A DNA stretch of 64,000 nucleotides from Bifidobacterium sp. ESL0732. Lineage in GTDB: Bacteria; Actinomycetota; Actinomycetes; Actinomycetales; Bifidobacteriaceae. The position numbers were made by a program, and so were the translations under genes. This document shows, piece by piece, positions 9,107 to 29,136 of this stretch. The notes under the pieces are model-generated. The model did no database searches. It saw only the letters and a program-made list of their open reading frames with translations, and was not told where the DNA came from. Numbering within the stretch: the first letter of the stretch is position 1; each line of letters opens with the position of its first letter. The stretch spans positions 186,001-250,000 of the forward strand of contig NZ_CP113920.1 in assembly GCF_029395535.1 (NCBI RefSeq), given 5' to 3'.

Positions 9107-9250
9107 GCCAGCTGAAAGACCAGACTTGCCAGATTGATACTCGATTCTGCGCACGGTTGAGAGGAGGATGAGGACCTTTACGACCATGAGCATGACAGAA
9201 AGACAATAAACAAAGCAGTAATTCGATTGATTCCTCGAGAAAGGGAAACC

Positions 9251-11344
9251 ATGCAAATACACAAAAAACTACGTGGTATGACAGCCATCGTGCTGTCGGC
9301 GGCCACGTTGGTGGCGCTCGCCGCTACCGGTGTCGGCACTGCGAACGCGGATCCGGCCACCGGCAACGTGCCGATTGACAGCACCACCAAAGGCACCATC
9401 ACTATCAACGATGCGGACAACACTGCGACCGGCACGGGTTCGAGCACCACGCACCACCAGTTCAAGGCAACTCTGGTGGCCTCGTATAAGTACGCCCAGT
9501 ATTATGACGACACACTTGACGGTCTTTCGCTTGACCCTGTTGCGAATCCGAAGGTGGCAGATGTCGAGGACGCGGTGAACTCTGTCAAGACCTCCGGCGA
9601 TCCCGCACTCACCACCGAGGAACTGGCCAATCCTATGGACTACGTTGCCAAGAACTGGCTTGGATATGACGCTGCAGGCAACAGCGCCAATGGTGACAAA
9701 ACCTCTAATAATTCAACCACCCTCGACGCAGACAGCCCTCGTCTGTATTCTGGAAAGCTGAGGGACTTCGTTACCAATTTGGTCGGTAAGCAATCGTTCA
9801 AGGACGCGCCAGGTGTGACGGGTACCGCGGCTGAATTCGCCAGCGGCAAGGAGCTTCCGGCAGGTCTGTATGTGATTCAGGATGTGTCGGGTTCGAACTC
9901 AACCGGCAAGACGAACACCATTCCGGTGTTGGTCGGTACCACCATCAAGGCGACGATAGGTGGCAACGCGAAAACGTTCTCCACGTTCACCAACAAGAAC
10001 ACGTTGGGCACGGTCAACATCAAGAACAACCAGCCAACGATTGAGAAAACCTGGGTCGGCACCAAGAAGGGCAACAATTGGACTACCGATAAGAGCGCTG
10101 CAATCGGTGACACTTTGCGGTTCCGCATCAAGACTGAGGTACCGCAGACCACTGGTTTCAAGCATTACATCTACAAGGTGCAGGATAAGCCTACTGATGG
10201 TCTCGATTACGTGGATGGCAGCGCGAAAATCTGGATTGGCTCCGACGCCGTCAACTTCACAAATGGAACCGGCGTAACCACTTCCACCAACGATACGCTC
10301 TCTGTCGGTTCTGCTGGCGATAACAAGGACGTGGCCTTCAAACGATATGGTCAGTCAAACAAGGACCTCGAGTTCAGCTTCTGGAAGCTCCTTGACGCCA
10401 ACGGCAATGTTGGCTCCTATGGGAGCGCTGGAAAGCCTTACATCCAAAACACCCCGATTACCATCGAGTATGAGATGAAGCTTACCGAGAAGGGTGCGCA
10501 GCACAACTCCGCTATGGTCATCTATTCCAACAACGACCAAAAGCCGCCGAAGAATGATAACAACTGTGACGTCGATAATCCGCCCACCGACGGAGCGTGC
10601 GGCGACCACGGCGGCAACGGCGGTGGCGGCGGCGGTAGCAACGGTGGCGGCGGCCAGGTCGACGTCGTCAACTACTCGATGGATCTTCACAACGTGTTCA
10701 AGCGTGACGAGACCAAGGATCTGGCCGGCGCGGAATTCCAAGTCTTTGCCGGGGATTCGGTGGCCAACAGTCCGCTGAAGTTTGAAAACAACAAGCACGT
10801 GGCGGCTACGGGAGGCCAGGCTGACAGAAATGCGCTGAGCCTTTACAGCTACAACCAGACCGCTACCAATGCCGATAATGTCACGACCCTGAAGGTCTCT
10901 GACGGTAACCCCGGGGCAGGAGAGACGCTGGGCGGCAACGACGAGGCGAAGGGTCATCTGAAGTTCGACGGCCTGCCTGCCGGTGATTATACAGTCAAGC
11001 AGACCAAGGCCGCTACGGGTATGGTGGGCGCGACGCTGCCGACCTTTACCTTCAGAATCACTCCTGCCACCACCACCACTCCGCAGGCTCCTGCGAAGTT
11101 CGAGATGGTTACGGCGGACTTCTGGGGACTGGCACACGATGTGGGTCCGGTCAGCCCTGCACAGAACAACACCGATGGAAAGGTGACCGTCGACTCGGTA
11201 GATTCGATCAGCTCGTTGCCTCTGACCGGTGGCGCGGGACTCATTCTGCTCGTGGTGCTCGCACTGTTGTTTGGCAGCGTGGCTGTCGGAACCACCGTGT
11301 TGCGCAAACGCGAGATGATGAATCGCTCCGAGCAGGAAGAGTAA
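9251..11344 (+). CDS. Major pilin (fimbrial backbone-type) with LPLTG anchor
   Basis: This 697-residue protein has a signal peptide ending near ATGVGTANA and an N-terminal pilin-like region with HHQFKATLVASYKYAQYY. Beta domains of the isopeptide D2/SpaA kind follow. A glycine-rich hinge (about 450-472, GNGGGGGGSNGGGG) precedes a SpaA/Cna-B-like domain (about 475-640). The sorting signal is LPLTG at 656, then a membrane helix and an RKRE tail. The start at 9251 is preferred because GAGAAAGGGA lies just upstream. Its E-box-like element near 580 reads YTVKQTKAATG, with Gln where Glu is usual; the first domain has a similar GLYVIQDV. A canonical YPKN-type pilin lysine motif was not recognised. 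It sits between the adhesin and the sortase, so it is probably the shaft subunit. Confidence 0.85.
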   Translation: MQIHKKLRGMTAIVLSAATLVALAATGVGTANADPATGNVPIDSTTKGTITINDADNTATGTGSSTTHHQFKATLVASYKYAQYYDDTLDGLSLDPVANPKVADVEDAVNSVKTSGDPALTTEELANPMDYVAKNWLGYDAAGNSANGDKTSNNSTTLDADSPRLYSGKLRDFVTNLVGKQSFKDAPGVTGTAAEFASGKELPAGLYVIQDVSGSNSTGKTNTIPVLVGTTIKATIGGNAKTFSTFTNKNTLGTVNIKNNQPTIEKTWVGTKKGNNWTTDKSAAIGDTLRFRIKTEVPQTTGFKHYIYKVQDKPTDGLDYVDGSAKIWIGSDAVNFTNGTGVTTSTNDTLSVGSAGDNKDVAFKRYGQSNKDLEFSFWKLLDANGNVGSYGSAGKPYIQNTPITIEYEMKLTEKGAQHNSAMVIYSNNDQKPPKNDNNCDVDNPPTDGACGDHGGNGGGGGGSNGGGGQVDVVNYSMDLHNVFKRDETKDLAGAEFQVFAGDSVANSPLKFENNKHVAATGGQADRNALSLYSYNQTATNADNVTTLKVSDGNPGAGETLGGNDEAKGHLKFDGLPAGDYTVKQTKAATGMVGATLPTFTFRITPATTTTPQAPAKFEMVTADFWGLAHDVGPVSPAQNNTDGKVTVDSVDSISSLPLTGGAGLILLVVLALLFGSVAVGTTVLRKREMMNRSEQEE

Positions 11345-11535
11345 TACGGTTCGCAGGTCTGTCAGCTAGAGATCGGTCGCTATCGATTCGGTCTTCGGCT
11401 CCCAGATATGATTGGCATGAGGATTCCACCAAGGCCTGCTGATTCAAGTCTTGTGATTAGACAAATCCGGATTCTACCGCCATATAACCGGTGGTCACGG
11501 AATCCTCGAATAGCCAATTTGCGAATGATGGTAGG

Positions 11536-11613
11536 ATGACCTGCCCAAGCGTAATTACGGATATTAGACGCTGATGCGTCGGATTATGGGCCGTAGACGC
11601 TTGGGCAGGTCAT
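11536..11613. repeat. 78-bp segmented palindrome between pilin and sortase genes
   Basis: A perfect 17-bp inverted repeat (ATGACCTGCCCAAGCGT at 11536-11552, its complement at 11597-11613) encloses two further nearly co-centred pairs: TACGG/CCGTA (11556-11560, 11591-11595) and GACGC/GCGTC (11567-11571, 11576-11580). As RNA it would fold into one long hairpin with internal loops. It may act as an intercistronic attenuator or processing site that lets pilin mRNA exceed sortase mRNA. A DNA cruciform or a small mobile repeat is also possible. Confidence 0.8.
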
Positions 11614-11679
11614 TCTTGCCGTTGAAGATTTGATTGTTACAAGTAGATAGTCGGCCTGGGCGGATAGAGGTATAACGCT

Positions 11680-12930
11680 GTGAAGATAGATGCGAAGCAT
11701 AGCGTGCGACGGATGGACGAAGCCGTTGACGCTCACGGTCGACACTGTAAAAGCGACGGTCGTGTTCGAGATGCCGTCGTCGCTTCGGGCAAAGGCGGCT
11801 GGTCGGCGGATGACGAGAAGGATGCCGGCCGTTTGCGCGGTGCCGGTTCCGTGCGCGCCTTCGGTAGGGCTGGTACGCATACGGACTTTCTCCATCGTTC
11901 GTTTGAAGACCTCATGCATCCACGCAGGAATAGCTCACGCATCGCATATCGGGTAGGCATCCGCGCCGTCCATGATCTCTTCGTTCTGCTCACCGTTGCC
12001 GTGTTGCTGTGGGCGCCGATCAATTGGGTCTATAATGCCCGTCAGGCCTCTATCGCTTCCATGCGAATTCAGCAGGAGCAGACAAAATGGCCCCGTGGCC
12101 AGGCGGCTAAAGAATACAATGATGCAAAAGCCTATAACCGTCAGATTGCGGCTTCCCCGCAGACCTCCTTGGGCGAGATTCTGGATCCCTTCACCGACGA
12201 AGGCAAGCAGGACAACGACTCGGGATCGAGCAAGGACACGCGTTACCAGGCATTGCTGCGTACTGAATCCGGTGGCATGGGTTCGATTCGCATCCCCAAG
12301 ATTTCTATGAATCTGCCCATTTACCATGGCACCTCGAAGGCGACGCTGGCCAATGGTGTTGGGCATCTTTACGGTACCAGTCTGCCGGTCGGCGGAGGGT
12401 CGACGAACGCCGTGCTCACCGGGCACAGCGGTATTCCGGATGCCGTGCTTTTTTCGCGTCTCGAAGAGCTGAGGCACGGTGACGTGTTTTATATACAGAC
12501 GCTTGGGCGGACCATGGGTTACCGGGTCACGGGCATCCACGTCGTCCTGCCCGAAGACACTCACCTTTACAAGGTCGTGCCCGGCCGTGATCTAGTCACA
12601 CTGATGACCTGTACTCCGCAGGGCATCAATACGCACCGGTTGATCATCACCGGAGAGCGGGGAAACATCCCCGACGACGTACCGAAACTTGATGATGGGG
12701 TGGACGCGAAACTTATCGCGATGATTGTGGCCGCGATTATCGCTTTGCTCGGCTTCGCTCTCGTCTTGCTACATAATTCGCGTACTTTGGTGCCGCCGCC
12801 GTGGCATTATGACGGCACACCAGTCGCGCGTCACACTGTCTTCCCACGCAGTTTCGATTCTCGTGGTTTGCCTCCGATGGGTATGATTGGGCGGCATAGC
12901 AAGCCCAAAAGGCCTATGCGTGGCGCCTGA
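11680..12930 (+). CDS. srtC: Class C (pilus-assembly) sortase
   Basis: This 416-residue membrane cysteine transpeptidase would polymerise the LPLTG pilin. The catalytic set is visible: His249 in VLTGHSG, Cys311 in TLMTCTP and Arg320 in NTHRLIITGER. A DPF lid motif (169-171), typical of class C sortases, blocks the active site in relatives. There are two membrane segments, at about 96-118 and 343-365, the second being the class C C-terminal anchor. The GTG start at 11680 has GAGG upstream but gives an Arg/Asp/Gly-rich N-terminus of about 80 residues unlike the family. ATG codons at 11713 and 11914 are alternatives; the last would begin just before the first membrane helix. It completes the adhesin-pilin-sortase cluster. 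Confidence 0.9.
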   Translation: MKIDAKHSVRRMDEAVDAHGRHCKSDGRVRDAVVASGKGGWSADDEKDAGRLRGAGSVRAFGRAGTHTDFLHRSFEDLMHPRRNSSRIAYRVGIRAVHDLFVLLTVAVLLWAPINWVYNARQASIASMRIQQEQTKWPRGQAAKEYNDAKAYNRQIAASPQTSLGEILDPFTDEGKQDNDSGSSKDTRYQALLRTESGGMGSIRIPKISMNLPIYHGTSKATLANGVGHLYGTSLPVGGGSTNAVLTGHSGIPDAVLFSRLEELRHGDVFYIQTLGRTMGYRVTGIHVVLPEDTHLYKVVPGRDLVTLMTCTPQGINTHRLIITGERGNIPDDVPKLDDGVDAKLIAMIVAAIIALLGFALVLLHNSRTLVPPPWHYDGTPVARHTVFPRSFDSRGLPPMGMIGRHSKPKRPMRGA

Positions 12931-13201
12931 CGGCCGGATTGGTTCATGTGATGGGGTCGGATTGCCAGAGGGGAAGTCGCCGTTTTGATGCTGCTGACCC
13001 ATGCCAAGCCGCTTTTCTGATGCAAATTTTCTGTTTTCCAAATTCAAGCCGTTTAAGTTCGATTAGTGTTTCAAATACAGCGGGACTTCTCAGTTACCCT
13101 ATTTTGGAGCTACTTGCGGGTGAGTGACCGCTTGTTGATGGCGGGAATTGGACGCCCCGGACGGGATTTGTTTCGCGGCGGCAAGGCTGAGATTGGAAGG
13201 A

Positions 13202-14416
13202 TTAGAAATCCCAATCGTCGTCGTTGGTTTCCTCGGCTGTGTTGGCGGCGATGGCGCCAGTAGAGGCCGAGACTGCGGCGGCGGTCACGGAATTGGTGCT
13301 GGAACTTGCGAACAGGCTGGCGGGTTTAAGCGCGGACGCCAGCGATTCTATGTCGTTGAGCTCGTCGATGACGGCCGGGTTCGGCTGGCTGATGTCGGCG
13401 GGGAACAGGGCGGGATATCCCAAGTAGGAGAGGGCCTTGTTGGAGTTGTAGCTCAGGAACTTTTCGATGTCGTCGTCGAGGCCGAGGTCGGCGTACGGCA
13501 GGGTATAGCTGTAATCCTCTTCGGCGAAATAGAGGTTGTTGGCCAAGTCGTAGACATACTGGCGCATCTCCTCGCGGGTGCTGTCGTCGAGTAGCTCGAG
13601 TTTTCTCTGGTAGACGGAGCCGAGATATGAGCTGGAAGTGATGATATCGCGGTTGATCAGACGGATGATATCGGCGGATTTCGTCATCGTTCCGCGGCTG
13701 GAAAGCCACATCGGCAGGTAGAAACCGGACTCCACCAGCAGAGCCTCGGCCAACACTGCCGCCGCGAGTCGCTTGAGCGAGCTGAGGTCGGGGGTACTTC
13801 CAGCGCCGGAATTGTCGTTGTTAACACTTGAAGAATCTGAAGCCGAAGAGTTTGGTGTCGCAATCTCGTCCGGTGACGAGATGCCCAGCGAATTGGCGGG
13901 AGTGCCCGCGTTTTGGTTTGATTGCTCCGTTGCGCCGGAAACAGTGACGTTTGGAATATTCAAAGCAGTTGCATATACATCATTGAGCAGTTGCAGCTTT
14001 TCCTGCATCGATTCGTTCTGCTCGGCCCAAGTAAACGGGGATTGCGTATCGTTGTCGTCGTTGCTTCCGAGCGCCGCGATAAGCGCCGAATAGGCTTTCG
14101 TGTGGATGGATTCACCGAGTGCGATGGCAGTCAACACGGCCTGCCCGATACCGGCACGGTCATTGCCTTTGCCGGCGTCGGTGCTCAGAACGCCGGTCGC
14201 GCCGCTGGCCTGCAGCGACTCCACTGCGGCAAGGCCCGCGAAAATCTGGCTCAGCGCGACCCGCTGGGCGTCGCTCAACCCGCGAATATCCTCGGCGTCG
14301 TCGCCCAGCGAAATCTGTTCCGGCGCCCACAGGTTCGCGGTCATAGCGTTGAAGGCGTCGCGGTCCGTATCGGCGTTGGCGCCGGCGAGATTCCAGTTCA
14401 TAGCGGTGAAGGGCAT
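13202..14416 (-). CDS. nrdF: NrdF-like ribonucleotide reductase small subunit with missing active-site residues
   Basis: The 404-residue protein aligns along its length with class Ib R2 (E. coli NrdF, ~319 aa). Conserved items include LWAPEQ, GESIHTKAY (E102, H105, radical-type Y109), E224 in VLAEALL, WLSSRG, SYNSNKAL and the NrdE-docking tail DDDWDF. Three departures stand out. The first ligand Asp is Glu66. The second EX2H motif (RDEAVH in E. coli) reads RDIITS, so both the Glu and the His are gone (Ile258, Ser261). The C-terminal radical-relay Tyr is absent. A Ser/Asn-rich insert (about 155-212) and an Ala/Ser-rich tail enlarge it. It lies 11 kb from nrdHIE rather than beside it. RBS AAGGAA precedes the ATG. 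It could be a pseudoenzyme paralogue or an unusual R2. Confidence 0.85.
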   Translation of the reverse strand: MPFTAMNWNLAGANADTDRDAFNAMTANLWAPEQISLGDDAEDIRGLSDAQRVALSQIFAGLAAVESLQASGATGVLSTDAGKGNDRAGIGQAVLTAIALGESIHTKAYSALIAALGSNDDNDTQSPFTWAEQNESMQEKLQLLNDVYATALNIPNVTVSGATEQSNQNAGTPANSLGISSPDEIATPNSSASDSSSVNNDNSGAGSTPDLSSLKRLAAAVLAEALLVESGFYLPMWLSSRGTMTKSADIIRLINRDIITSSSYLGSVYQRKLELLDDSTREEMRQYVYDLANNLYFAEEDYSYTLPYADLGLDDDIEKFLSYNSNKALSYLGYPALFPADISQPNPAVIDELNDIESLASALKPASLFASSSTNSVTAAAVSASTGAIAANTAEETNDDDWDF

Positions 14417-14678
14417 AGATGTTCCTTACGTAGATTAATAAAAGGGGCTCTGCCTTCTAGATTACCGAGGCCCGCTCTCGTATTCGCTGAGCGAAAGATG
14501 TGAGAGATGGTGTCCGTAGAATAGCGCAGAAATTCTCTCTCGAAAACCTCTTGGAATTCGTCAAGTACTCCTGAAACTTTTCCGATAATGTATTAAAGTC
14601 TCTTTGGGAATTGTTCTGGAAATTCCTCAAAATCCTTCTACGGACTTGTGGAACTGTTCTGGAATCCTGCGAAATGCT

Positions 14679-15695
14679 TCAGAACCGATACCAGCGCTGG
14701 GCGTTGGCGACGAAGAGCGCGTCCTGCTCGGGCTCGGAAAGCGTTTCGACGCAGCGCGCGAAGCCGTGCACGATGTCGCCGTAGGTGCCGTGCAGCTTGT
14801 CGACGGGGAAATTCGAGCCGAACATGACGCGATCGGTGCCGAACGCGTCGAGAATCGTATAGACGATGGGCTTGATGCTTTCCAGGGTCCAGCGGTGGTC
14901 GAGCGAGGCCAGCGCCGAGATCTTGATGGCGCAATTATCGCGCTGTGCCAGATTTCGCAACCCCTTGCTCCAAAGCTGCCATCCGGCGAGATCTCGGTCG
15001 GCCCACATTCCCGCGTGGTCGATGATGAACAGTGTCTCTGGATTGGCGTCGATGACCTCGCAGGCGCGCGCGAATTGGGTGGGGTAAAGCTGCATGTCGA
15101 AACTCATGCCGTATTTTTTGAGCAGCGCGAGTCCCTTGAGCCATTGCGGGTCGTCCATGTAGGATTTGTCGACGTAGTTATAGAGCGGGTGCGGATGCAT
15201 GTTGAGGTTCTGCCGCACGCCCCGCACGTCGGCGAACGCAGCCTCGCGTTCCAGCAGGCTTTCGATACCGGGATCGCTCAGGTCGCCTCCACCGACGATC
15301 ATGATCGGCCACGCGGCGCGTTCGCCCATGGTCTCCACCGCTTCGATCTCGGCGATGGGGTCGTCGGCGTTCGCTTGGATGTGGACGGCGCCTTTCAGTT
15401 CGATTGGCGTGCCGTTCGTTTCCTGTTCCAGCTGCTCGTTGGTGAAGTCGCCCATGGCGAACAGCGGATCCCAAGGCCCCTCGAATGTCGGGGGTTTCGA
15501 AGGATTGAACCACGAATAGAGTGAGGTTTTCATCAGATGCACGTGCGTGTCAATGAATGGCCGTGGCTTGGCGGACTGCGCTCGCGTTTCCGGGATGATA
15601 GTCGTCAGGCGGTCCGTTACGGTTTCACTGAAAATCGCGGACTTGCCTGCTGGCTCCGGATTTTTTGAGTTGTCATTTTCGTATGAAGTTCTCAT
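14679..15695 (-). CDS. Amidohydrolase-family sugar lactonase (probable L-rhamnono-lactonase)
   Basis: A 338-residue amidohydrolase_2 (COG3618) protein, a family that includes L-fucono- and L-rhamnono-lactonases. The barrel begins at FIDTHVHL (H51, H53). Further active-site-type residues occur in IDHAGMW and in the C-terminal MFGSNFPVD motif. The hydrophilic N-terminal extension (about 45 residues) is longer than usual. The start at 15695 has AAGGGTGA upstream. It runs divergently from the rhamnonate dehydratase, behind an SDR dehydrogenase. In that setting it would hydrolyse L-rhamnono-lactone to L-rhamnonate in the cytoplasm; a fuconolactone substrate cannot be excluded from sequence. Confidence 0.8.
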   Translation of the reverse strand: MRTSYENDNSKNPEPAGKSAIFSETVTDRLTTIIPETRAQSAKPRPFIDTHVHLMKTSLYSWFNPSKPPTFEGPWDPLFAMGDFTNEQLEQETNGTPIELKGAVHIQANADDPIAEIEAVETMGERAAWPIMIVGGGDLSDPGIESLLEREAAFADVRGVRQNLNMHPHPLYNYVDKSYMDDPQWLKGLALLKKYGMSFDMQLYPTQFARACEVIDANPETLFIIDHAGMWADRDLAGWQLWSKGLRNLAQRDNCAIKISALASLDHRWTLESIKPIVYTILDAFGTDRVMFGSNFPVDKLHGTYGDIVHGFARCVETLSEPEQDALFVANAQRWYRF

Positions 15696-15884
15696 TCGAT
15701 GTCACCCTTGACTTGAAAATTATTATTTAATAATAAGGACCATCATATTTCTGTTTGCCGGATATAACCGATATGTCGACTATTTTAAGCAAATCGTATC
15801 TATCGTTTCTCTGGCAACCAGGCGGGTGGCAGCCTACGATGATTGAATTTTACCGGATTCAGCGCAGGCCGCCAGCCAGATAAT

Positions 15885-16682
15885 TCAGAGCACGGAACGG
15901 GTGTCGTTCTCGTAGGAGTTGCGACCCTGCCCGGTCGCTGCGGTGGTGCCGCCGTCGACGGGCACGACCAGGCCGGTCAGGTATGCTGCGTCGTCGGAGG
16001 CGAGGAACAGCGCGACCCCCGCGCAATCCTCGGGCCGTCCGGTGCGCCCAAGCGCCACGCGCTGCGTGTAGGGGGCGACGCGATCGGGGTCGCTCCACAC
16101 CTCTTTGTTGATGTCGGTTTCGATGAAGCCGGGTGCGAAGGCGTTGACGCGCACGCCCTTGGCTCCGTAGTCGAGGGCCACGCAGCGCACGAAGCCGTTC
16201 ATGGCGTGTTTGGTGGAGTTGTAGGCCGTCTGCCCCCAGTCGCCGTAAAGGCCGGAAACGGAGGTGTCGACCACGATGTTGCCGTGCGAAGCGATGAGGT
16301 GGGGCAGGGCCTCCTTGGTCAGATAGAAGAGGCCGTCGAGGTTGACGGAGAAGAGCTTGTGCCAGACTTCGTCGGAGACGTGCTCGACCTCACCGCCCTC
16401 GAAGATGCCAGCGTTGGAGACGACCACGTCGAGATGGCCGAATTCGTCGACGACGGATTGCACGAGTTCCTTGACCTGCGCGTGATCGGAAACGTCGGTG
16501 ATGTGGATATGGCCCTTGTCGTAGCCTTTCACGGTATCTTCGAGCGGTTCTTTGCGCAGACCCACGGCCACCACGGTGGCACCGTTGTCGAGGAACCCTT
16601 GCGTGACGGCCTTGCCGATGCCGGTGCCGCCGCCGGTGACGATGACGACCTTGCCATTGAAATCGTAAGAATTGCTGGTCAT
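15885..16682 (-). CDS. SDR-family sugar dehydrogenase (probable L-rhamnose 1-dehydrogenase)
   Basis: This 265-residue classical short-chain dehydrogenase has the cofactor motif TGGGTGIG (17-24), the structural VSNAG motif (88-92) and the catalytic Ser141/Tyr154/Lys158 set (YNSTK). The ATG at 16682 is chosen over a longer reading because GAAGGAG lies seven bases upstream and the cofactor fold begins directly after it. The adjacent lactonase and the divergent rhamnonate dehydratase point to oxidation of L-rhamnose to its lactone. SDRs of this type also act as L-fucose dehydrogenases, so specificity is inferred. The 200-bp gap to the lactonase start contains a 17-bp AT palindrome (about 15722-15738) but no clear terminator. 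Confidence 0.78.
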   Translation of the reverse strand: MTSNSYDFNGKVVIVTGGGTGIGKAVTQGFLDNGATVVAVGLRKEPLEDTVKGYDKGHIHITDVSDHAQVKELVQSVVDEFGHLDVVVSNAGIFEGGEVEHVSDEVWHKLFSVNLDGLFYLTKEALPHLIASHGNIVVDTSVSGLYGDWGQTAYNSTKHAMNGFVRCVALDYGAKGVRVNAFAPGFIETDINKEVWSDPDRVAPYTQRVALGRTGRPEDCAGVALFLASDDAAYLTGLVVPVDGGTTAATGQGRNSYENDTRSVL

Positions 16683-16786
16683 GAACACTCCTTCGTTGCT
16701 TGACGATTCCGGGCTTTCGCAGGCGACGGCTGCCGAAGCGTGGTCGAGGTGTGCGAAACCCTGTATATCCCCTATTTCACCATATT

Positions 16787-16801
16787 TGGAACATTGTTTC
16801 A
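16787..16801. promoter_or_regulatory. Candidate IclR operator in the divergent rhamnose promoter region
   Basis: TGGAACATTGTTTCA is a 15-bp imperfect palindrome (6 of 7 pairs). It lies between the divergent SDR and rhamnonate dehydratase genes, where the locus IclR regulator would be expected to bind. ATATAGGGAC follows at about 16803-16812, and its reverse complement occurs upstream of the rhamnosidase (24391-24400). Binding is inferred. Confidence 0.45.
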
Positions 16802-16875
16802 TATATAGGGACAAATATATGTGCGCGATAATCTGGATATCGGCACTGTTTTTTCTTTAACGGAGAGGAATCGCT

Positions 16876-18102
16876 ATGACATTGGCACCATCATTGAAGA
16901 TGCCCACGATTACCGCGATCCGCGCCTATTCCATGGGCGGGGCCGCAGCCAAGGTCCACGGACAGGGCGGCGGGGATTATCACGACCAAGGGCCCGGCCA
17001 CTGGATCGATGACCACATCGCCACGCCGATGAGCAAGTACCCCGAATACGAGCAGTCCCGCCAGAGCTTTGGCCTCAATGTATTGGGCACGCTGGTGGTC
17101 GAGGTCGAGGCCAGCGACGGCACCACGGGCTTCGCGATTTCCACGGCCGGGGCCATCGGCTGCTTCATCGTCGAGCACCATCTTTCGCGCTTCGTCGAAG
17201 GCAAGCGCGTCGATCAGATCAAGCTGATCCACGACCAGATGCTCAACGCCACGCTCTTCTATTCCGGCGGTGGCGGCGTGGTGATCAACACCGTCTCCTG
17301 CGTCGACCTGGCGCTGTGGGATCTCTACGGCAAGGTCCTGAAGATGCCGGTCTACAAGCTGCTCGGCGGCGCGGTACGCGACGAGATCCACTTCTATGCC
17401 ACGGGCGCACGGCCCGATCTGGCCCAGAAAATGGGCTTCATCGGCGGCAAGATGCCGACCCACTGGAGCTCCGCGTTCGGCGACGAGGGTATTGAAAAAG
17501 ACATTGCGACGCTCGCCGATATGCGCGAGAAGGTCGGCGACAATTTCTGGCTGATGTATGACTGCTGGATGAGCATGGACGTCAATTACGCCACCAAGTT
17601 CGCCCACGCGGCCGCGCCTTACAAGCTCAAGTGGATGGAGGAATGCTTCCCCGCCAGCCAGATCGATTCCTACCGCGAGTTGAAGCGCGTGATGCCGGCG
17701 GGCATGCTGATGACCACCGGCGAGCACACCGGCACGCTCGAGGGCTTCAAGGAGCTTTCCGACGCGGGCGTCGACATCCTGCAGCCCGACGTCGGCTGGT
17801 GCGGCGGCGTCACGTCGCTGTGCGAGATCGCGGCGGTCGCCAAGGCCCACGGCCAGCTGGTCGTGCCTCACGGTTCGTCCGTCTATTCGCACCACGCCGT
17901 GATCACCTTCACCAACACCCCGTTCAGCGAGATGCTGATGACCGCGCCGAAGGCCGACCATATCCGTCCGCAATTCGACCCGATCTTGATCGGCGAGCCG
18001 GTCCCTCACGATGGCATCATCACCGCCGAGGAATTGGACAAGCCCGGTTTCGGCGTCGAACTCAACCGCGACTGCCCGCTTGAGCGTCCGTATCAGCACT
18101 GA
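16876..18102 (+). CDS. rhmD: L-rhamnonate dehydratase
   Basis: The 408-residue protein belongs to the mandelate-racemase subgroup of the enolase superfamily and is close to E. coli RhmD (YfaW) throughout, for example [23 protein letters not shown] and GGKMPTHW. Metal ligands correspond to D229, E255 and E283. The catalytic dyad corresponds to D305 ([10 protein letters not shown]) and H332 ([11 protein letters not shown]). It removes water from L-rhamnonate to give 2-keto-3-deoxy-L-rhamnonate in the cytoplasm; relatives also accept L-mannonate and L-lyxonate. GGAGAGGA precedes the ATG. The aldolase follows 11 bp downstream, forming an operon. This is the most secure functional anchor of the locus. 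Confidence 0.95.
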
Positions 18103-18113
18103 GAAAGAGCATC

Positions 18114-18887
18114 ATGGCTACACAGCAATTGAAACATAATCCGTTCAAGGCGGCGATTCACCAGCCCGGCCCCAAGCAGCTCAAGGGACTGTGGGTCGCG
18201 ATGGGATCCGCGACGTCGGCGGAGATCGCCGCGGGCATCGGTTACGACTGGATGCTCATCGACGGCGAGCACGGCCCGAACGACCTGACCACGATCGAGG
18301 CGCAGCTTCGCGCCTGCCAGGGTTACGATACCCCGGCGATTGTGCGTCCGGCGGCGGCCGACCCGGTGCGCATCAAGCAGGTGCTCGACATCGGCGCCCA
18401 GTCGCTGTTGATCCCGATGGTCAACAACCGCGAGCAGGCCGAGCTGATGGTTAAGGCCGTCAACTACGCGCCCAAGGGCATCCGTGGTGTCGGCGGTTCC
18501 ATCGCACGTTCCGGGCGTTGGGGCATGATTCCGAACTACATGCGTGACGCGGCCAGCGAAATCTGCCTGATCGTACAGGTCGAATCGCGTGAGGCGCTCG
18601 GCAATATCGAAGAGATCGCCAGTGTCGACGGCATCGACGGCGTCTTCATCGGACCCGCCGACCTTTCGGCCTCGCTCGGCCATCCCGACGACGCCGCCGC
18701 CATCAGCGACGAGGTCCATCACGCCTTTGACGTCATCAAGGCACATGGCAAGGCCGTTGGTTCGCTCGCCTTCGATGCTCCCACCGCCAAGCAGTATTTC
18801 GCATGGGGTGCCGATTTCATTGCGGTCGCCGGCGATACCGACGTCTATGTGCACGGCCTTGACGCCGCGCTTGCGCAATATAAGTGA
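18114..18887 (+). CDS. rhmA: 2-keto-3-deoxy-L-rhamnonate aldolase
   Basis: This 257-residue HpcH/HpaI-type class II aldolase resembles E. coli YfaU/RhmA closely: GYDWMLIDGEHGPN with the catalytic-type His, QVLDIGAQSLLIPMV, RGVGGSIARSGRWG and GVFIGPADLSASLG. Metal ligands are expected in the LIVQVESR and GPADLS segments. It splits 2-keto-3-deoxy-L-rhamnonate to pyruvate and L-lactaldehyde. It is translated directly after the dehydratase (11-bp gap, RBS AAAGAG). No lactaldehyde reductase or dehydrogenase is present in the window, so that step must lie elsewhere. Confidence 0.93.
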   Translation: MATQQLKHNPFKAAIHQPGPKQLKGLWVAMGSATSAEIAAGIGYDWMLIDGEHGPNDLTTIEAQLRACQGYDTPAIVRPAAADPVRIKQVLDIGAQSLLIPMVNNREQAELMVKAVNYAPKGIRGVGGSIARSGRWGMIPNYMRDAASEICLIVQVESREALGNIEEIASVDGIDGVFIGPADLSASLGHPDDAAAISDEVHHAFDVIKAHGKAVGSLAFDAPTAKQYFAWGADFIAVAGDTDVYVHGLDAALAQYK

Positions 18888-18963
18888 CTGCGCATGTGGC
18901 ATTGGGCAGGAGGCGGCAATGGCATTGGCACATAACTGCACGTAACTGAAGGATAGGCGGCTA

Positions 18964-19770
18964 TTGTTGAATGATATGAATGAAGGAACCACGAACGTGC
19001 GTGGTGCCCAGACTCTTATCAACGGCATAGCGGTGCTCAAAGCCGTTGCCGCAGGGGCACGCACGCTGCGGGCGCTGACCGAGGCCACCGGTTTGAGCCG
19101 CAGTACCACGCATCGCTTGATTCAGGCGCTGCGTGGCGAACGTATGCTGCGCGACAACGTCGACGGCAGCCTGGCGCTCGGCCCCGCCCTGATCGAGCTC
19201 GGCTTTCAGGCGAGGGAAGACACGTCGATCAGCGCCGTCGCCCGTCCGTATTTGCTTGACCTTTCCGATGCCACCCGCGACACCATCCATCTCGCCGTCG
19301 AGGACGATGGCGAGACGCTGTATCTTGACAAGATCAACGGCACGCGTTCCGTCGAGATTCGTTCGTGGCCTGGCTGCCGGATGCCGCTGACTTACACGGG
19401 CATCGGTAAGGCGCTTCTGCTTGACAAGAGAGACCGTTGGGAGAAGCAGTATATCGCTGATCGCAAGCGCATGGAACGTCAGCCGGAGCACAATTATTCC
19501 GGGGCGAAAGCCTTCGCCAATGCAATGGCACGCTACGCCAAACGCGGGGTGGCCTACGATCTCGAGGAAAACGAGCCGGGCGTGCGCTGCGTGGCCGCGC
19601 CGGTGCGCGACGAATCCGGCAAGATCGTATGTGCGATTTCCGTCTCGAGTTTCAAGACCTTCATGCCTTTCGAGCGCATGCGCGAGGTCGGCCCGCTGGT
19701 GGCCGATGCCGCCGCTTCGATTTCCGCCGAGCTCGGTTGGGCGGGTGGATCTTCCGGTAAAGGCGCATAG
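18964..19770 (+). CDS. IclR-family transcriptional regulator of the rhamnose locus
   Basis: The product has about 268 residues. The N-terminal winged helix (about 15-75, including LTEATGLSRSTTHRLIQALRGE) is followed by an IclR effector domain (about 90-260) with the usual GVAYDLEENEPGVRCVAAPV and GALSVS-like strands. The start is uncertain: TTG at 18964 or 18967 sits behind AGGCGG, whereas the ATG at 18976 is 15 bases away. It lies 76 bp after the aldolase gene, as yfaX follows the rhm genes in E. coli. It probably senses L-rhamnonate or the keto-deoxy acid and binds near 16787-16801; this is inference. Confidence 0.88.
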   Translation: MLNDMNEGTTNVRGAQTLINGIAVLKAVAAGARTLRALTEATGLSRSTTHRLIQALRGERMLRDNVDGSLALGPALIELGFQAREDTSISAVARPYLLDLSDATRDTIHLAVEDDGETLYLDKINGTRSVEIRSWPGCRMPLTYTGIGKALLLDKRDRWEKQYIADRKRMERQPEHNYSGAKAFANAMARYAKRGVAYDLEENEPGVRCVAAPVRDESGKIVCAISVSSFKTFMPFERMREVGPLVADAAASISAELGWAGGSSGKGA

Positions 19771-19881
19771 CCGTTTGCGTTTATTTTTGTCTTTTGCGGA
19801 GCCGTGAAGCGGAATTGTCTGCGATTCTTTCCGAAAGCGAGTTAGGCCAAAAAGCTAGCAAGGTATTCAAGCATCATAATA

Positions 19882-19921
19882 AAGAACGCCGCCTCCCGAG
19901 GTTTTCGGGGGCGGCGTTCTT
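19882..19921. terminator. Bidirectional terminator between convergent IclR and MFS genes
   Basis: A 12-bp perfect stem (AAGAACGCCGCC, complement at 19910-19921) encloses a further CCGA/TCGG pairing. It lies between two converging genes and is flanked by A- and T-rich ends, so it can serve both strands. Confidence 0.85.
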
Positions 19922-19945
19922 CGGTGTACTTCTGTCTCTGAGAAA

Positions 19946-21283
19946 TTACTTCACTTTCTTGATGAACATGATGACCGCAGCGCCAACGAGCACTGAAACG
20001 ATGGCGATGGGGAAGAGAATTGCATAGCTATTGGTCGCCACCACAATGGCGCCGACGATAACCGGTGCGATGACCTGGCCCAAGGTGTTAGCGAGGTTCA
20101 GAATACCGAGGTCTTTGCCTGCTTCATCCTTGCTCGGCAGCACGTCGACGTTGAGGGCCTGATCGACGGCCATGTAGATGCCATAACCCAGGTTTCCGAC
20201 GAACGCATAAATCAGCATACCCATCGCTGTCGGCATCAGCCACGGAACTAAAAGGCCGATGGCAATGATGACGGAACCGAGCACAACGATGATCTTACGG
20301 CGCTGTAGCTTGTCGGAAATCGGTCCGGAGAGCAACGACATGATAATCTGGACCACCATGGCGATGGCCGCCATTTGCGAGATGACACCGGCGGAACTGG
20401 TCTTGCCCAACCCGCAATACTTCTGCAGGATGTAAAGCTGATAGCCCGCGATCATCTGCCAGCCGAGGATCAGCATGAGCCTGCCGACAAGCGCCAGATA
20501 GAAGTCGCGGCAGTTCTTGGTCGGCGGGATGAAAGCCTTGAGGATGTCTGTCGCCTTGAGCTTTTCGGCGTTCTCATTCTTCGAGGACATTTCGCGCGGG
20601 AAGAGCAGTACGGCGACGATACCGGTGATGCCGAACAAAACGACGCCGAGGATGAAGCCGGGGGTCATGTTGGAAATGAATTTCGCTCCGATGAAAGTGC
20701 CGAGTGAAGAACCTACGATTTGAGCTCCGCCGTAGAACGCGGAGAAGGTTCCTCGCACATTCTCCGGGATGCGGTCAGAAAGCACGGCCACGCAGGGGGC
20801 GATCATGCAGTTGACGCCGATCTGGACGATGGACCAGCCGGCCACGATGCCGAAGAGGTTGACGCTATAGGCGGTTATCGCGTAACCGATGCCTGCTATG
20901 ACGCCGCCGAAGATGATCCAAGGGGTACGTTTTCCGAATTTCGAGCGTGTCACATCGCTGAATGCGCCGAAGACGATGTTCGACACAAGGGCGAATACGC
21001 AGCCCACCGAGTTCATCGTTCCCAAAATGACTTCCGGCACACCAATATGAAGGTCGCTGAAACGTTGCGGCAGCAAAACCGCCGAGCCGGCGGTGCCTGC
21101 CGTCATCCATAGCAGCGAGAACAGCGTAAAGCCGACGCAGAAACGAATCTTTGTTTTTGTGTCCATCGGCTTGTGGGTATCGGGAGCAAGATTCCTTGTG
21201 TCCACGGCAACGGAGGCTGTTCCGCTGTCTGGAGATATCTGGCCTTCATCCGTATCAGGACGAGGCTCGTCATTGAGTTCCAT
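19946..21283 (-). CDS. MFS sugar/rhamnoside transporter
   Basis: This 445-residue protein has about 12 membrane segments after a 35-residue acidic N-terminus. The loop after helix 2 reads GAFSDVTRSKFGKRTPWI, the pattern of MFS/GPH-like sugar permeases. A mid-protein LSGPISDKLQRRK loop repeats the motif in the second half. It is transcribed in the same direction as the GH78 rhamnosidase, 220 bp downstream of it, with hairpins between. The rhamnosidase lacks a signal peptide, so this permease probably brings rhamnosides or L-rhamnose into the cell. Substrate inferred from context only. Confidence 0.82.
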   Translation of the reverse strand: MELNDEPRPDTDEGQISPDSGTASVAVDTRNLAPDTHKPMDTKTKIRFCVGFTLFSLLWMTAGTAGSAVLLPQRFSDLHIGVPEVILGTMNSVGCVFALVSNIVFGAFSDVTRSKFGKRTPWIIFGGVIAGIGYAITAYSVNLFGIVAGWSIVQIGVNCMIAPCVAVLSDRIPENVRGTFSAFYGGAQIVGSSLGTFIGAKFISNMTPGFILGVVLFGITGIVAVLLFPREMSSKNENAEKLKATDILKAFIPPTKNCRDFYLALVGRLMLILGWQMIAGYQLYILQKYCGLGKTSSAGVISQMAAIAMVVQIIMSLLSGPISDKLQRRKIIVVLGSVIIAIGLLVPWLMPTAMGMLIYAFVGNLGYGIYMAVDQALNVDVLPSKDEAGKDLGILNLANTLGQVIAPVIVGAIVVATNSYAILFPIAIVSVLVGAAVIMFIKKVK

Positions 21284-25752: not shown

Positions 25753-27939
25753 TCAGAGCATGCAGCTGACGCAGCCTTCGACCTCGGTGCCCTCAAGCGC
25801 CTGCTGACGGATGCGGATGTAGTAGAGGGTCTTGATGCCCTTGCGCCAGGCGTAGATCTGCGCCTTGTTGAGCTCGCGGGTGGTCACGCCGGCGGGGAAG
25901 AAGAGGGTCAGCGACAGACCCTGGTCGACGTGCTGGGTGGCCTCGGCGTAGGTGTCCACGATCTTCTTCCAACCGATTTCGTAGGCGTCCTCGAAGTACT
26001 CGAGGTTGTCGTTGGTCATGTATGGCGCCGGATAGTAGACGCGGCCGACCTTGCCTTCCTTGCGAATCTCGATCTTCGAGGCGATCGGGTGGATCGAGGA
26101 GGTGGAGTGGTTGATATAGGAGATCGAACCGGTCGGCGGCACGGCCTGCAGGTACTCGTTGTAGATGCCGTCCTTCAGGATTTCGTCGCGCAGCGTCTCC
26201 CAGTCGGCCACGGTCGGGATGCGGATGCCGAAGCGCTCGAAGAGGTCCTTCACGGTTTGGGTCTTCGGCTCGAGCGAACGACGGCCGTCGGTGTACTTGT
26301 CGAAGTAGTTGCCCTGCCCTGCGGCCTTGGCGTAATCGGAGGTATCGAAGGTCGCGAAGGCGTGGCCACGCTCGACGGCCAGCTTGTGCGAGGCCTTGTA
26401 GGCGTGGTATGCCACGGTCATGAAGTACATGTCGGTGAAGTCCAGCGCCTCTTCGGAGCCATAATGCATGCGCTCGCGGGCGAGGAAACCGTGCAGGTTC
26501 ATCTGGCCGAGCCCGATGGAGTGGCCCTCTTCGTTGCCGCGCTTGATGGACGGCACGGAGTCGATGTGGGTCTGCTCGGAAACGGAGGTGAGTGCGCGGA
26601 TTGCGGTCTCGACCGGGTCGGCCAAGCCGCCGTCCATCGCTTTGGCGATGTTGAGGGAGCCCAAGTTGCAGGAGATGTCCTTGCCGACGTGCTTGTAGCT
26701 CAGGTCGTCATTGTAGGTGGAGGCTTCCTGCACCTGCAGGATTTCGGAGCAGAGGTTGGACATCGTGACGCGGCCGTCGATTGGGTTGGCCTTGTTGACG
26801 GTGTCCTCAAAGAGGATGTAGGGGTAGCCGGACTCGAACTGCACCTCGCCCAAGGTCATGAAGAACTCACGGGCATCGATGTAGGTCTTGTGGATGCGGT
26901 CGTCGTGCAGCATCTCGTCGTACTTCTCGGTAACGCTGATATCGGCGAATGGCTTGCCGTAGACGCGCTCGACGTCGTAGGGGGAGAAGAGGGCCATCTT
27001 CTCCTTGCGCTTGGCGAGCTCGAAGGTGATGTCGGGGATCACAACGCCCAGGGAGAGCGACTTGATTCGGGTCTTCTCGTCGGCGTTCTCGCGCTTGGTG
27101 TCGAGGAAGCGCAGGATGTCGGGGTGGTGCGCGTTGAGGTAGACCGCGCCGGCGCCCTGGCGCGCGCCCAGCTGGTTGGCGTAGGAGAACGAGTCCTCCA
27201 AGAGCTTCATGACCGGCACGACGCCACTGGACTGGTGCTCGATGTGCTTGATCGGAGCGCCCTGTTCACGCAGGTTGGTGAGCAGCAGAGCCACGCCGCC
27301 GCCGCGCTTGGAAAGCTGCAGGGCGGAGTTGATGCCGCGAGAGATGGACTCCATGTTGTCCTCGATGCGCACGAGGAAGCAGGAGACGGGCTCGCCGCGC
27401 TGGGCCTTGCCCAAATTCAGGAAAGTAGGTGTGGCGGGCTGGAAGCGGCCGGAGAGGATTTCGTCGACGTACTTGACGGCGGCCTTCTCGTCGCCGGCGG
27501 CCAGCTCGAGCGCCACGGCGGCGCAACGCTGCGGGAAGTCCTCGAGGTACTGCTTGCCGTCGAAGGTCTTCAGCGCGTAGGAACGGTAGAACTTGAAGGC
27601 GCCGAGGAAGGTCTCGAACTCGAAGCCGAAGTCCTCGACGTGCTGGTAGAAGGAGTCGAGGAACTTCGGAGTGTACTGGTCGAAGACCTTGCCGTCGTAA
27701 TACAGGTTATCGATCAAGTACTTTAGACGCTCGGCGGTGGAGCTGAACTTTTTGGTGTTCTGCGCGACGTGAGAGTTGACGTAGGCGCGCTCGGCCTCCT
27801 TGTCCTTGTCGAACTGGATCTTGCCGTCCTCGTCGTAGAGGTTGAGCATGGCATTGAGCGAATGGTAGTCGTGCTCCGGGTCGAAACCGGTGTCTTCGAC
27901 GGTGTTGTCCATGCTCAGCGCGGAATCGTTGAGTCCCAT
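25753..27939 (-). CDS. nrdE: Class Ib ribonucleoside-diphosphate reductase large subunit
   Basis: This 728-residue subunit reduces ribonucleotides to deoxyribonucleotides. Expected NrdE features are intact: the active-site cysteine in GEPVSCFLV, the SNLCSEI loop bearing the thiyl-radical Cys and Glu, the partner Cys in [12 protein letters not shown], and the C-terminal redox pair in EGCVSCML that accepts electrons from NrdH. GATAGGAA precedes the ATG at 27939. It is the last gene of nrdH-nrdI-nrdE. A small-subunit gene does not follow; LacI lies convergently downstream. The only R2 homologue in the window is the odd NrdF-like gene at 13202-14416. Confidence 0.96.
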
Positions 27940-28073: not shown

Positions 28074-28685
28074 TTATTGCTGTTGGTCCTGCATGTTCTG
28101 TATGTTCTGTTCGTTCTGCGTGGCTTGCGTGTTCTTCGCGTTCAGGAAGAAGTCCCTCACACCCTCGCGCACCTGGCGTTGGTCGTCCGGGGTGCCGAGC
28201 AGCTCGAAATTATACATGAACGGGACATGGCACTTCTTGGAAATAATGTCGCCTGCCGCACAAAACGCGGTCGCAAAGTTCCTGTTACCAGAGGAAATAA
28301 CCCCGCGGATGAAGCTGCGGTTCTTGTGTCCGTTCAAGAATTTGCGGATCTGGGGGAGCAACGCTTTCGCGACGTTGCCGCCACCGTAGGTCGGCACAAT
28401 CAGGATGTACGGCTCGCGCACCTGCAGCGGAGCCTCTTTGGGGCGCAGCGGGATGCGGTAAACGTTGATGCCCTCGTCGGGGAAGCCGCAGCTTTCGATG
28501 AAGCGCGCGGTGTTGTTCGAAACCGACGAGAAATAGACCACGGCGCCGATGTGATCGCCTTTGGCCCTGGCCTCCGGAACGCTTGGTGTAATGCACTCGT
28601 CGTCGTACGGCTCGGTTGCCGCGTTCGCGGTTCCTGTGGCGGATTCTGCGTGTGTGGTGGCGTTATCGATACTCGCGTCCGCCAT
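28074..28685 (-). CDS. nrdI: NrdI flavodoxin-like activator of class Ib RNR
   Basis: The 203-residue product is longer than usual NrdI (~135-150) because of an Ala/Thr-rich N-terminus (about 35 residues) and a Gln/Asn-rich tail. The core has the flavodoxin-like start VVYFSSVSNNTARFIE, PTYGGG and a GVISSGNRNFATAFCAAGD segment, as in NrdI proteins that supply oxidant for the Mn2-tyrosyl cofactor of NrdF. The ATG at 28685 follows GAGAAGG; in-frame upstream starts lack a binding site and would run into nrdH. Its presence implies that a metal-dependent NrdF exists in the genome, which makes the ligand-poor NrdF at 13202 more puzzling. Confidence 0.92.
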   Translation of the reverse strand: MADASIDNATTHAESATGTANAATEPYDDECITPSVPEARAKGDHIGAVVYFSSVSNNTARFIESCGFPDEGINVYRIPLRPKEAPLQVREPYILIVPTYGGGNVAKALLPQIRKFLNGHKNRSFIRGVISSGNRNFATAFCAAGDIISKKCHVPFMYNFELLGTPDDQRQVREGVRDFFLNAKNTQATQNEQNIQNMQDQQQ

Positions 28686-28743
28686 CGTCGCCTTCTCTCT
28701 AAGTTCTGTTTGGTTGGTCTGGTTGGTCCGGTTCATCGTCGAA

Positions 28744-29019
28744 CTAGGCGAGAACGGTCTGCTGGGTCTTGGCGTCGGCGGAAGTCGCAACGGCGCTGGA
28801 TGCAAGCTGCTTGATGAGGTCCGGGCGATAGCCGCTCCAGGAGGCATCCGGCGTGATGACGACAGGCGCCTGACGGAAGCTGGCCTGAGTGAGCTGCTCG
28901 AGGGTGGAGGGGTTTTCAGTCAGATCCACGGTCTCGAACGCGATGTTCGCTCGCGTAAGTTGGCGCTTGGTCGCTTCGCACTGTGGGCAGCGTGGTTTGG
29001 TGAAAACGGTAACGGTCAT
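28744..29019 (-). CDS. nrdH: NrdH glutaredoxin-like reductant of class Ib RNR
   Basis: A 91-residue redoxin with the active-site CPQC in TKPRCPQCEATKRQL near the N-terminus and the C-terminal SWSGYRPDLI segment typical of NrdH. It passes electrons, usually from thioredoxin reductase, to the C-terminal cysteines of NrdE. It is the first gene of nrdH-nrdI-nrdE; its leader carries an NrdR-type box. Confidence 0.95.
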   Translation of the reverse strand: MTVTVFTKPRCPQCEATKRQLTRANIAFETVDLTENPSTLEQLTQASFRQAPVVITPDASWSGYRPDLIKQLASSAVATSADAKTQQTVLA

Positions 29020-29061: not shown

Positions 29062-29136
29062 ACTACATGGATGTAGTTCCAAACTGAACCCCAACTTTTA
29101 GTAGCGTGTCGATTTATCAACCACTAGATATAGTGC
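29062..29136 (-). promoter_or_regulatory. NrdR-type operator region upstream of nrdHIE
   Basis: CCACTAGATATAGTGC (29121-29136) matches the NrdR box pattern acaCTATATATAGtgt closely. A second dyad, ACTACATGGATGTAGT (29062-29077), lies nearer the gene. The centres are 59 bp apart, more than the 20-32 bp usual for NrdR pairs, so the second may be a weaker or different site. NrdR would repress the operon when dATP is plentiful. Confidence 0.65.

Follow-up and report, generated by a model that had tools for sequence, protein, structure and literature searches.

A conserved NrdF paralogue of Bifidobacterium, predicted to be radical-dead, that may dock on NrdE beside a class Ie R2 protein

De novo synthesis of DNA precursors depends entirely on ribonucleotide reductase (RNR), whose R2 subunit is anchored to the R1 subunit mainly by its C-terminal tail. 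The closest described relatives of the protein reported here are R2 homologues of the Rnr4/R2_e2 (PfR4) type, which lack key radical-making residues, keep the tail, stand on long branches and occur alongside one orthodox R2, as laid out in passages of PMC3824934. The same passages describe the apicomplexan R2_e2 as lacking the C-terminal Tyr and retaining the last 7-8 residues, and report interactions of PfR4 with R1 as well as R2 in Plasmodium falciparum. According to parts of a second source (PMC3483043), mammalian RNR is competitively inhibited by R2 tail peptides, and the Rnr4 tail peptide from yeast has been seen bound to R1, with a binding mode that differs between yeast and E. coli. In the portions of the literature searched, non-catalytic R2 subunits come from eukaryotes (yeast and Apicomplexa), and no non-catalytic bacterial NrdF or R2 was seen among the open-licence PMC papers that made up that search. 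Here we describe a candidate from bacteria, an NrdF paralogue (β′) encoded at 13202..14416 on the reverse strand of a 64,000-nucleotide stretch of Bifidobacterium sp. ESL0732 (assembly GCF_029395535.1, contig NZ_CP113920.1, positions 186,001 to 250,000 of the forward strand), hereafter the window.

Two kinds of bacterial R2 serve as comparators, the class Ib NrdFs and the class Ie proteins. The class Ie QSK NrdF of Bifidobacterium vaginale (8RAG/8RAH) is, like the paralogue, a substituted-ligand R2 from the same wider group of organisms; class Ie proteins keep both His ligands, the Asp, the tallied channel residues and the relay Tyr, and replace three Glu by Gln, Ser and Lys, whereas the paralogue changes a different set. 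Passages of PMC11846895 state that QSK class Ie genes often have no adjacent nrdE and that the nrdE elsewhere may have another nrdF; the survey in that paper may have counted the present paralogues as nrdF. One study of RNRs in bifidobacteria (PMC5535262) reports, in the passages at hand, no NrdF signature indels and makes no mention there of B. asteroides.

The paralogue gene runs from an ATG, with the ribosome-binding-like site AAGGAA 5 bases before it, to a TAA stop at 13202-13204 and encodes 404 residues; its features given below all lie on the reverse strand. The product belongs to the R2/ferritin-like family (Pfam PF00268, 3.8e-48, well above the cut-off) and is closest in fold and sequence to class Ib NrdF, with 38% identity to Corynebacterium ammoniagenes R2F over 279 aligned residues. 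Against the class Ib β profile TIGR04171 it reaches 199.8 bits, below the cut-off of 355, and its similarity to the R2lox profile NF006199 is weak (21.2 bits, far under the cut-off of 286). The R2 fold is predicted by structural modelling to be intact, and the protein carries two segments that set it apart from class Ib. A Ser/Asn-rich variable linker (residues 152-206, 13799..13963) that separates helices D and E is predicted to be disordered, with a predicted local distance difference test score below 50, and has no counterpart in the two class Ib and one class Ie sequences aligned. A lengthened tether without the relay Tyr (residues 354-391, 13244..13357) is predicted to be disordered from residue 360; the C-terminus beyond the NPAx motif spans 55-69 residues in the paralogues, compared with 37 in three ordinary NrdFs. 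The N-terminal extension of the studied QSK R2 is absent from the paralogue in the alignment.

A first-pass annotation of this DNA had listed LWAPEQ, Glu102/His105/Tyr109, Glu224, WLSSRG, SYNSNKAL and DDDWDF as NrdF landmarks, and all are present in the 404-residue protein. The departures it had pointed to, namely RDIITS with Ile258 and Ser261, Glu66 and the missing relay Tyr, are there as well, and changes of the same type proved to be fixed throughout a clade. To place them, residues were tallied in E. coli NrdF numbering over 19 full-length paralogues, 12 class Ib rows and 20 class Ie rows, one of the last (G086) with a broken C-terminus. All six metal ligands are kept in 12/12 class Ib rows. 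In alignment with solved NrdF chains, RDEAVH has become RDIITS (13634..13651), and the ligands E192 and H195 are gone; the former is Ile in 15 and Leu in 4 paralogues, the latter Ser in all 19. The ligand Asp67 is Glu (Glu66, codon 14219..14221) in 19/19 paralogues and Asp in 12/12 class Ib and 20/20 class Ie rows. The segment ESIHTKAY (14090..14113) places Glu102, His105 and Tyr109 at E98, H101 and the radical Tyr105; His and Tyr are kept in all paralogues, and E98 is Glu in 15, Gly in 3 and Ser in 1. E158 (Glu224) is Glu in 11 and Gln in 8. The class Ie rows show Gln, Ser and Lys at E98, E158 and E192 in 20/20 and keep the Asp and both His, so that the paralogues, with Glu/Gly/Ser, Glu/Gln and Ile/Leu at these three positions and Ser at H195, fall outside class Ie too, as had been suspected from the single protein.

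The oxidant channel from NrdI is also altered. In Bacillus cereus NrdF it is lined by Ser162, Tyr166, Lys263 and Asn267 (passages of PMC9462851), which correspond to E. coli numbers after subtraction of 3. Tyr163 and Asn264, present in 12/12 class Ib and 20/20 class Ie rows, are replaced in the paralogues, the first by Glu (Glu229, 13730..13732; Glu in 18, Gln in 1) and the second by Tyr (Tyr331, 13424..13426; 19/19). S159 is Ala in 12, Ser in 6 and Val in 1, and K260 is kept. No Tyr or Trp stands between the NPAx motif, NPAV in the window protein, and the docking residues in 19/19 paralogues and one partial sequence. The putative NrdE-docking tail (residues 392-404, 13205..13243), by comparison, ends in DDDWDF in all 19, and Y105, H101, W31 and D191 (Y109, H105, W30 and D257 in the window protein) are invariant. 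These residues show metal binding, the delivery of oxidant and the radical relay to be affected together, with the docking sequence spared. The paralogue thus lacks tested defining features of both catalytic class Ib and class Ie, and its manner of working would be β′-like.

The paralogues form a clade. A profile search of a protein collection returned 22 proteins, comprising the 19 full-length paralogues (the window's included), one partial sequence (P0020) and two ordinary NrdFs. A tree built from 52 NrdF rows (51 different) places the 19 on one side of a branch with 100/100 support. In 19/19, E192 is replaced by Ile or Leu, H195 by Ser and D67 by Glu, the tail Tyr is missing and the docking tail is retained; P0020 shares the C-terminal changes. 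A sequencing error or a mutation of one strain is ruled out by these 19 distinct full-length sequences, which settles a doubt raised when only one sequence was in view. Within the genus, 12 of 112 genomes carry the gene, the window's included, and the other proteins are 61-89% identical to that of the window; a family-wide profile search at E ≤ 1e-100 found it in 13/189 genomes and 2/16 genera. The named source organisms are all Bifidobacterium (ESL isolates, B. commune, B. asteroides DSM 20089 and one metagenome-assembled genome), and we take the named carriers to be bee-gut bacteria. Most source annotations name the protein as an ordinary β subunit, a warning for those who rely on such labels.

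The gene is under purifying selection, with dN/dS (ω) of about 0.2. For the pair G000/G087, of which G000 is the window genome, dS is 0.29, dN 0.058 and ω 0.198 (95% interval 0.135-0.290); three more pairs give 0.18-0.21, and ω of 1 was reached in 0/2000 bootstraps in each of the four. Simple decay is disfavoured by these ratios, in agreement with the intact frame from which the first-pass annotation had argued. Over all 13 printed pairs ω ranges from 0.126 to 0.371, the maximum involving G093, and constraint is tighter on class Ie NrdF (0.02-0.10) and NrdE (0.03-0.14). By region, over seven pairs, ω is 0.07-0.13 in the C-terminal core (213-353), 0.07-0.21 in the N-terminal core and 0.14-0.49 in linker plus tether; the 13 codons of the docking tail show dN of 0-0.06. 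Compared with class Ib rows, conservation in the paralogue is lower in helices B, C, D and F and higher in helices G and H, the segment after H and the tail, a comparison valid as a relative profile only, since the class Ib and Ie rows cover other species. Furthermore, at 26 positions where class Ib is invariant, at least 18/19 paralogues share a different residue.

The genomic setting links the paralogue to a single NrdE and a class Ie R2. The window genome holds one nrdE, one nrdI, two NrdF genes and a class III nrdD. The first-pass annotation had proposed looking for a further nrdF with the full set of six ligands, and none is present; the other NrdF is, by sequence, a class Ie QSK gene. 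It starts at position 2,193,691 of the 2.39-Mb contig, some 2.0 Mb away in one direction and, should the contig be circular, 0.4 Mb in the other. The same composition recurs in 12/12 carriers of the genus, each with two NrdF and one NrdE, the other NrdF being QSK. In all 12 the paralogue shares the strand of nrdE and follows it downstream. The gap is 146-170 nt in four (G091, G090, G093 and G025), which places the gene directly after nrdE as in class Ib; it is 1.3 kb with an intervening short-chain dehydrogenase/reductase (SDR) gene in G088 and G092, 2.0 kb in G085, and 5.7-17 kb in G084, G083, G000, G087 and G082. In G002, G095 and G075 an ordinary class Ib nrdF stands right after nrdE, with the class Ie gene at another site, 12 kb away in G002. 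The paralogue thus occupies the nrdF place or lies farther down from nrdE.

We propose that the paralogue is a docking-only β′ that occupies NrdE and so restrains or tunes class Ie RNR, a role to which we give an even chance. The NrdF of the operon would have lost radical chemistry as class Ie took over radical making. The protein presumably cannot form a radical, and its conserved tail suggests that it still binds NrdE; an intact tail on a long tether, with neither relay nor radical, would occupy NrdE unproductively, and competition with class Ie NrdF for the single NrdE would act as a brake or buffer. Selection for such a role may date from the transfer of radical making to the class Ie protein. 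Like Rnr4 and PfR4, the paralogue has, by sequence, lost radical-making residues and conserved the R1-docking tail. Those proteins descend from eukaryotic class Ia R2, with R2_e2 keeping most functional residues according to the passages cited above, whereas the paralogue derives from a bacterial NrdF and stands beside a class Ie R2. The broader claim would make the paralogue the first bacterial β′, a non-catalytic R2 retained in the nrd operon in a regulatory role once its radical chemistry had been handed to a metal-free class Ie R2, which it would control by docking on NrdE with a lengthened, relay-less tail; we advance this claim with a little less than even confidence. If true, such a conserved bacterial subunit, sharing the cell with a class Ie R2, would let regulation by tail competition be dissected in a natural system. 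It would also allow a test of how metal site, oxidant channel and relay can be lost from an R2 whose fold and docking persist, and would show how class Ie replaced class Ib within a lineage.

Several observations weigh against this proposal. A decoy would need the tail alone, yet the whole R2 core is constrained, and a pure docking protein would have no need of the invariant Y105, H101, W31 and D191 unless they are structural. Conservation of helix E is on a par with class Ib (0.79 against 0.78), and that of helix H is not above class Ie (0.87 against 0.89). In the window genome the paralogue lies 11.3 kb from nrdE; a promoter scan of 13000-14700 found 0 against 0.7 expected, and a consensus scan found no NrdR-like site near the gene in the window, so that co-regulation with nrdHIE is not evident. 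The close genomes G086 and G089, with one class Ie NrdF each, have no paralogue, nor do the next-out G012 and G013, with one NrdF each, that of G013 being QSK by sequence. In G083 (L008) an in-frame TGA interrupts the gene at codon 134, the downstream part being open and conserved. These absences and the stop make the gene accessory and dispensable. The constrained core would suit the chief competing explanation, that the paralogue, like Rnr4 and PfR4, pairs with the class Ie NrdF as a heterodimer and aids its folding, its NrdE binding or its 3,4-dihydroxyphenylalanine (DOPA) radical. The likeness to those heterodimers with an orthodox R2 is one of sequence, the defects resembling those of eukaryotic β′ subunits. 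Maturation helpers are plausible, given that DOPA in B. vaginale class Ie R2 rises on co-expression with NrdI, NrdH and R1 (passages of PMC11846895). Class Ie NrdF is nevertheless kept in G086 and G089 without any paralogue, and G083 carries its stop; moreover, the studied QSK R2 is described in the same paper as a homodimer with an interface of 4300 square angstroms formed through the N-terminal extension, which the paralogue lacks. The genomes lacking the gene and the size of this interface speak against an obligate partner. We consider a heterodimer partner unlikely, at roughly one chance in four.

The first-pass annotation had left two branches, a pseudoenzyme that still binds NrdE or a new R2 variant. 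The former is favoured by the clade-wide loss of ligands, channel and relay under purifying selection. The latter, with an oxidised residue made or stored at a mononuclear site formed by E66, E102, H105 and Y109, would account for the invariance of Y109, H105, W30 and D257 and for Glu in place of Asp in 19/19. However, E102 is lost in 4/19 and E224 is Gln in 8/19, and with two channel residues replaced in 18-19/19 and the relay Tyr gone in all there would be no known route to NrdE; we regard this variant as improbable. Still more doubtful, if by little, is that the gene is a relic on its way out, kept by chance since class Ie took over. The stop in G083, the absence from G086 and G089 and the fast evolution of the paralogue (ω 0.13-0.37, above both class Ie NrdF and NrdE) fit such a relic. 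Against it stand the bootstraps, none of which reached neutrality in any of the four pairs, the 26 refixed positions, and the open frame in 11/12 carriers, including four with the gene displaced 5.7-17 kb from nrdE.

The origin of the paralogue was examined separately. At 34 columns fixed differently in class Ib and class Ie, it matches Ib at 12, Ie at 10 and neither at 12. A 19-row tree joins it to Bifidobacterium class Ib at 62/70, not starred, and an approximately unbiased test rejected neither placement with class Ie (p 0.23) nor a position outside both classes (p 0.22). Sequence comparison by itself does not choose between these placements, and the class Ib origin is drawn from synteny and from the Glu that part of the clade still has at E98 and E158. 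A case of apparent movement is B. asteroides DSM 20089 (G131), in which an ordinary class Ib nrdF and a second NrdF, scoring like class Ie genes typed in three congeners, flank the main nrdE on either side. Besides these complete RNR genes, a separate fragment (L123, 8763-11994) carries the paralogue together with an SDR gene and the terminal part, about 195 codons, of a second nrdE, with 84-88% DNA identity to the arrangement in G092. The other 26 of the 27 genomes of its genus have one or two ordinary-scoring NrdF genes. It looks as if the paralogue reached G131 by horizontal transfer, and its retention there may be recent. The fragment is present twice, near both contig ends, and the two copies are probably a redundant circular overlap. 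The main G131 locus (C1:1533841-1538742) holds the class Ib and class Ie-scoring genes around one nrdE within about 5 kb, and nrdF pairs about 4 kb apart, like this one, occur in several congeners.

Among the other RNR genes of the window, nrdE (25753..27939, reverse strand; TIGR04170, 1138.7 bits) is the only class I large-subunit gene found in the genome, as the single PF02867 match, and nrdI (28074..28847, reverse strand; TIGR00333) is the only copy found, as the single PF07972 match. The start given for nrdI is tentative; its open reading frame has about 100 residues ahead of the NrdI domain and overlaps that of nrdH (28744..29019, reverse strand; TIGR02194, 86.8 bits, cut-off 85.75). Upstream of nrdH, a palindrome resembling an NrdR box (29121..29136, no strand assigned) has 3 mismatches to the consensus used, in a scan that allowed up to 4 and gave 4 matches in the window and 6 in one shuffled window. 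A single match therefore means little; its recurrent position means more, a similar match lying near nrdH in 7/7 other scanned loci that hold this gene. Two such palindromes, their starts 31 bp apart, precede the class Ie nrdF in the window genome (L045, 8881-8927) and recur in L046 and not in L047; the class Ie gene may be under NrdR control. In G086 (L074, L091, L092) nrdE is split over several frames and the class Ie NrdF has an altered C-terminus, possibly through assembly indel errors. In 16 of the 112 genomes of the genus, such as G001, no NrdF match was found, and G001 has no NrdE match either; aerobic class I RNR seems to be missing in part of the genus.

The gap between paralogue and nrdE in the window is occupied in part by a rhamnose-type catabolic island (14679..21283, no strand assigned), in which an L-rhamnonate dehydratase exceeds its cut-off and aldolase, SDR, lactonase-like, IclR-like and major facilitator superfamily-like genes mostly score under theirs. 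On the other side of the paralogue (5453-12930), large surface-protein genes with LPLTG-type sorting signals and a sortase-like gene were noted by eye.
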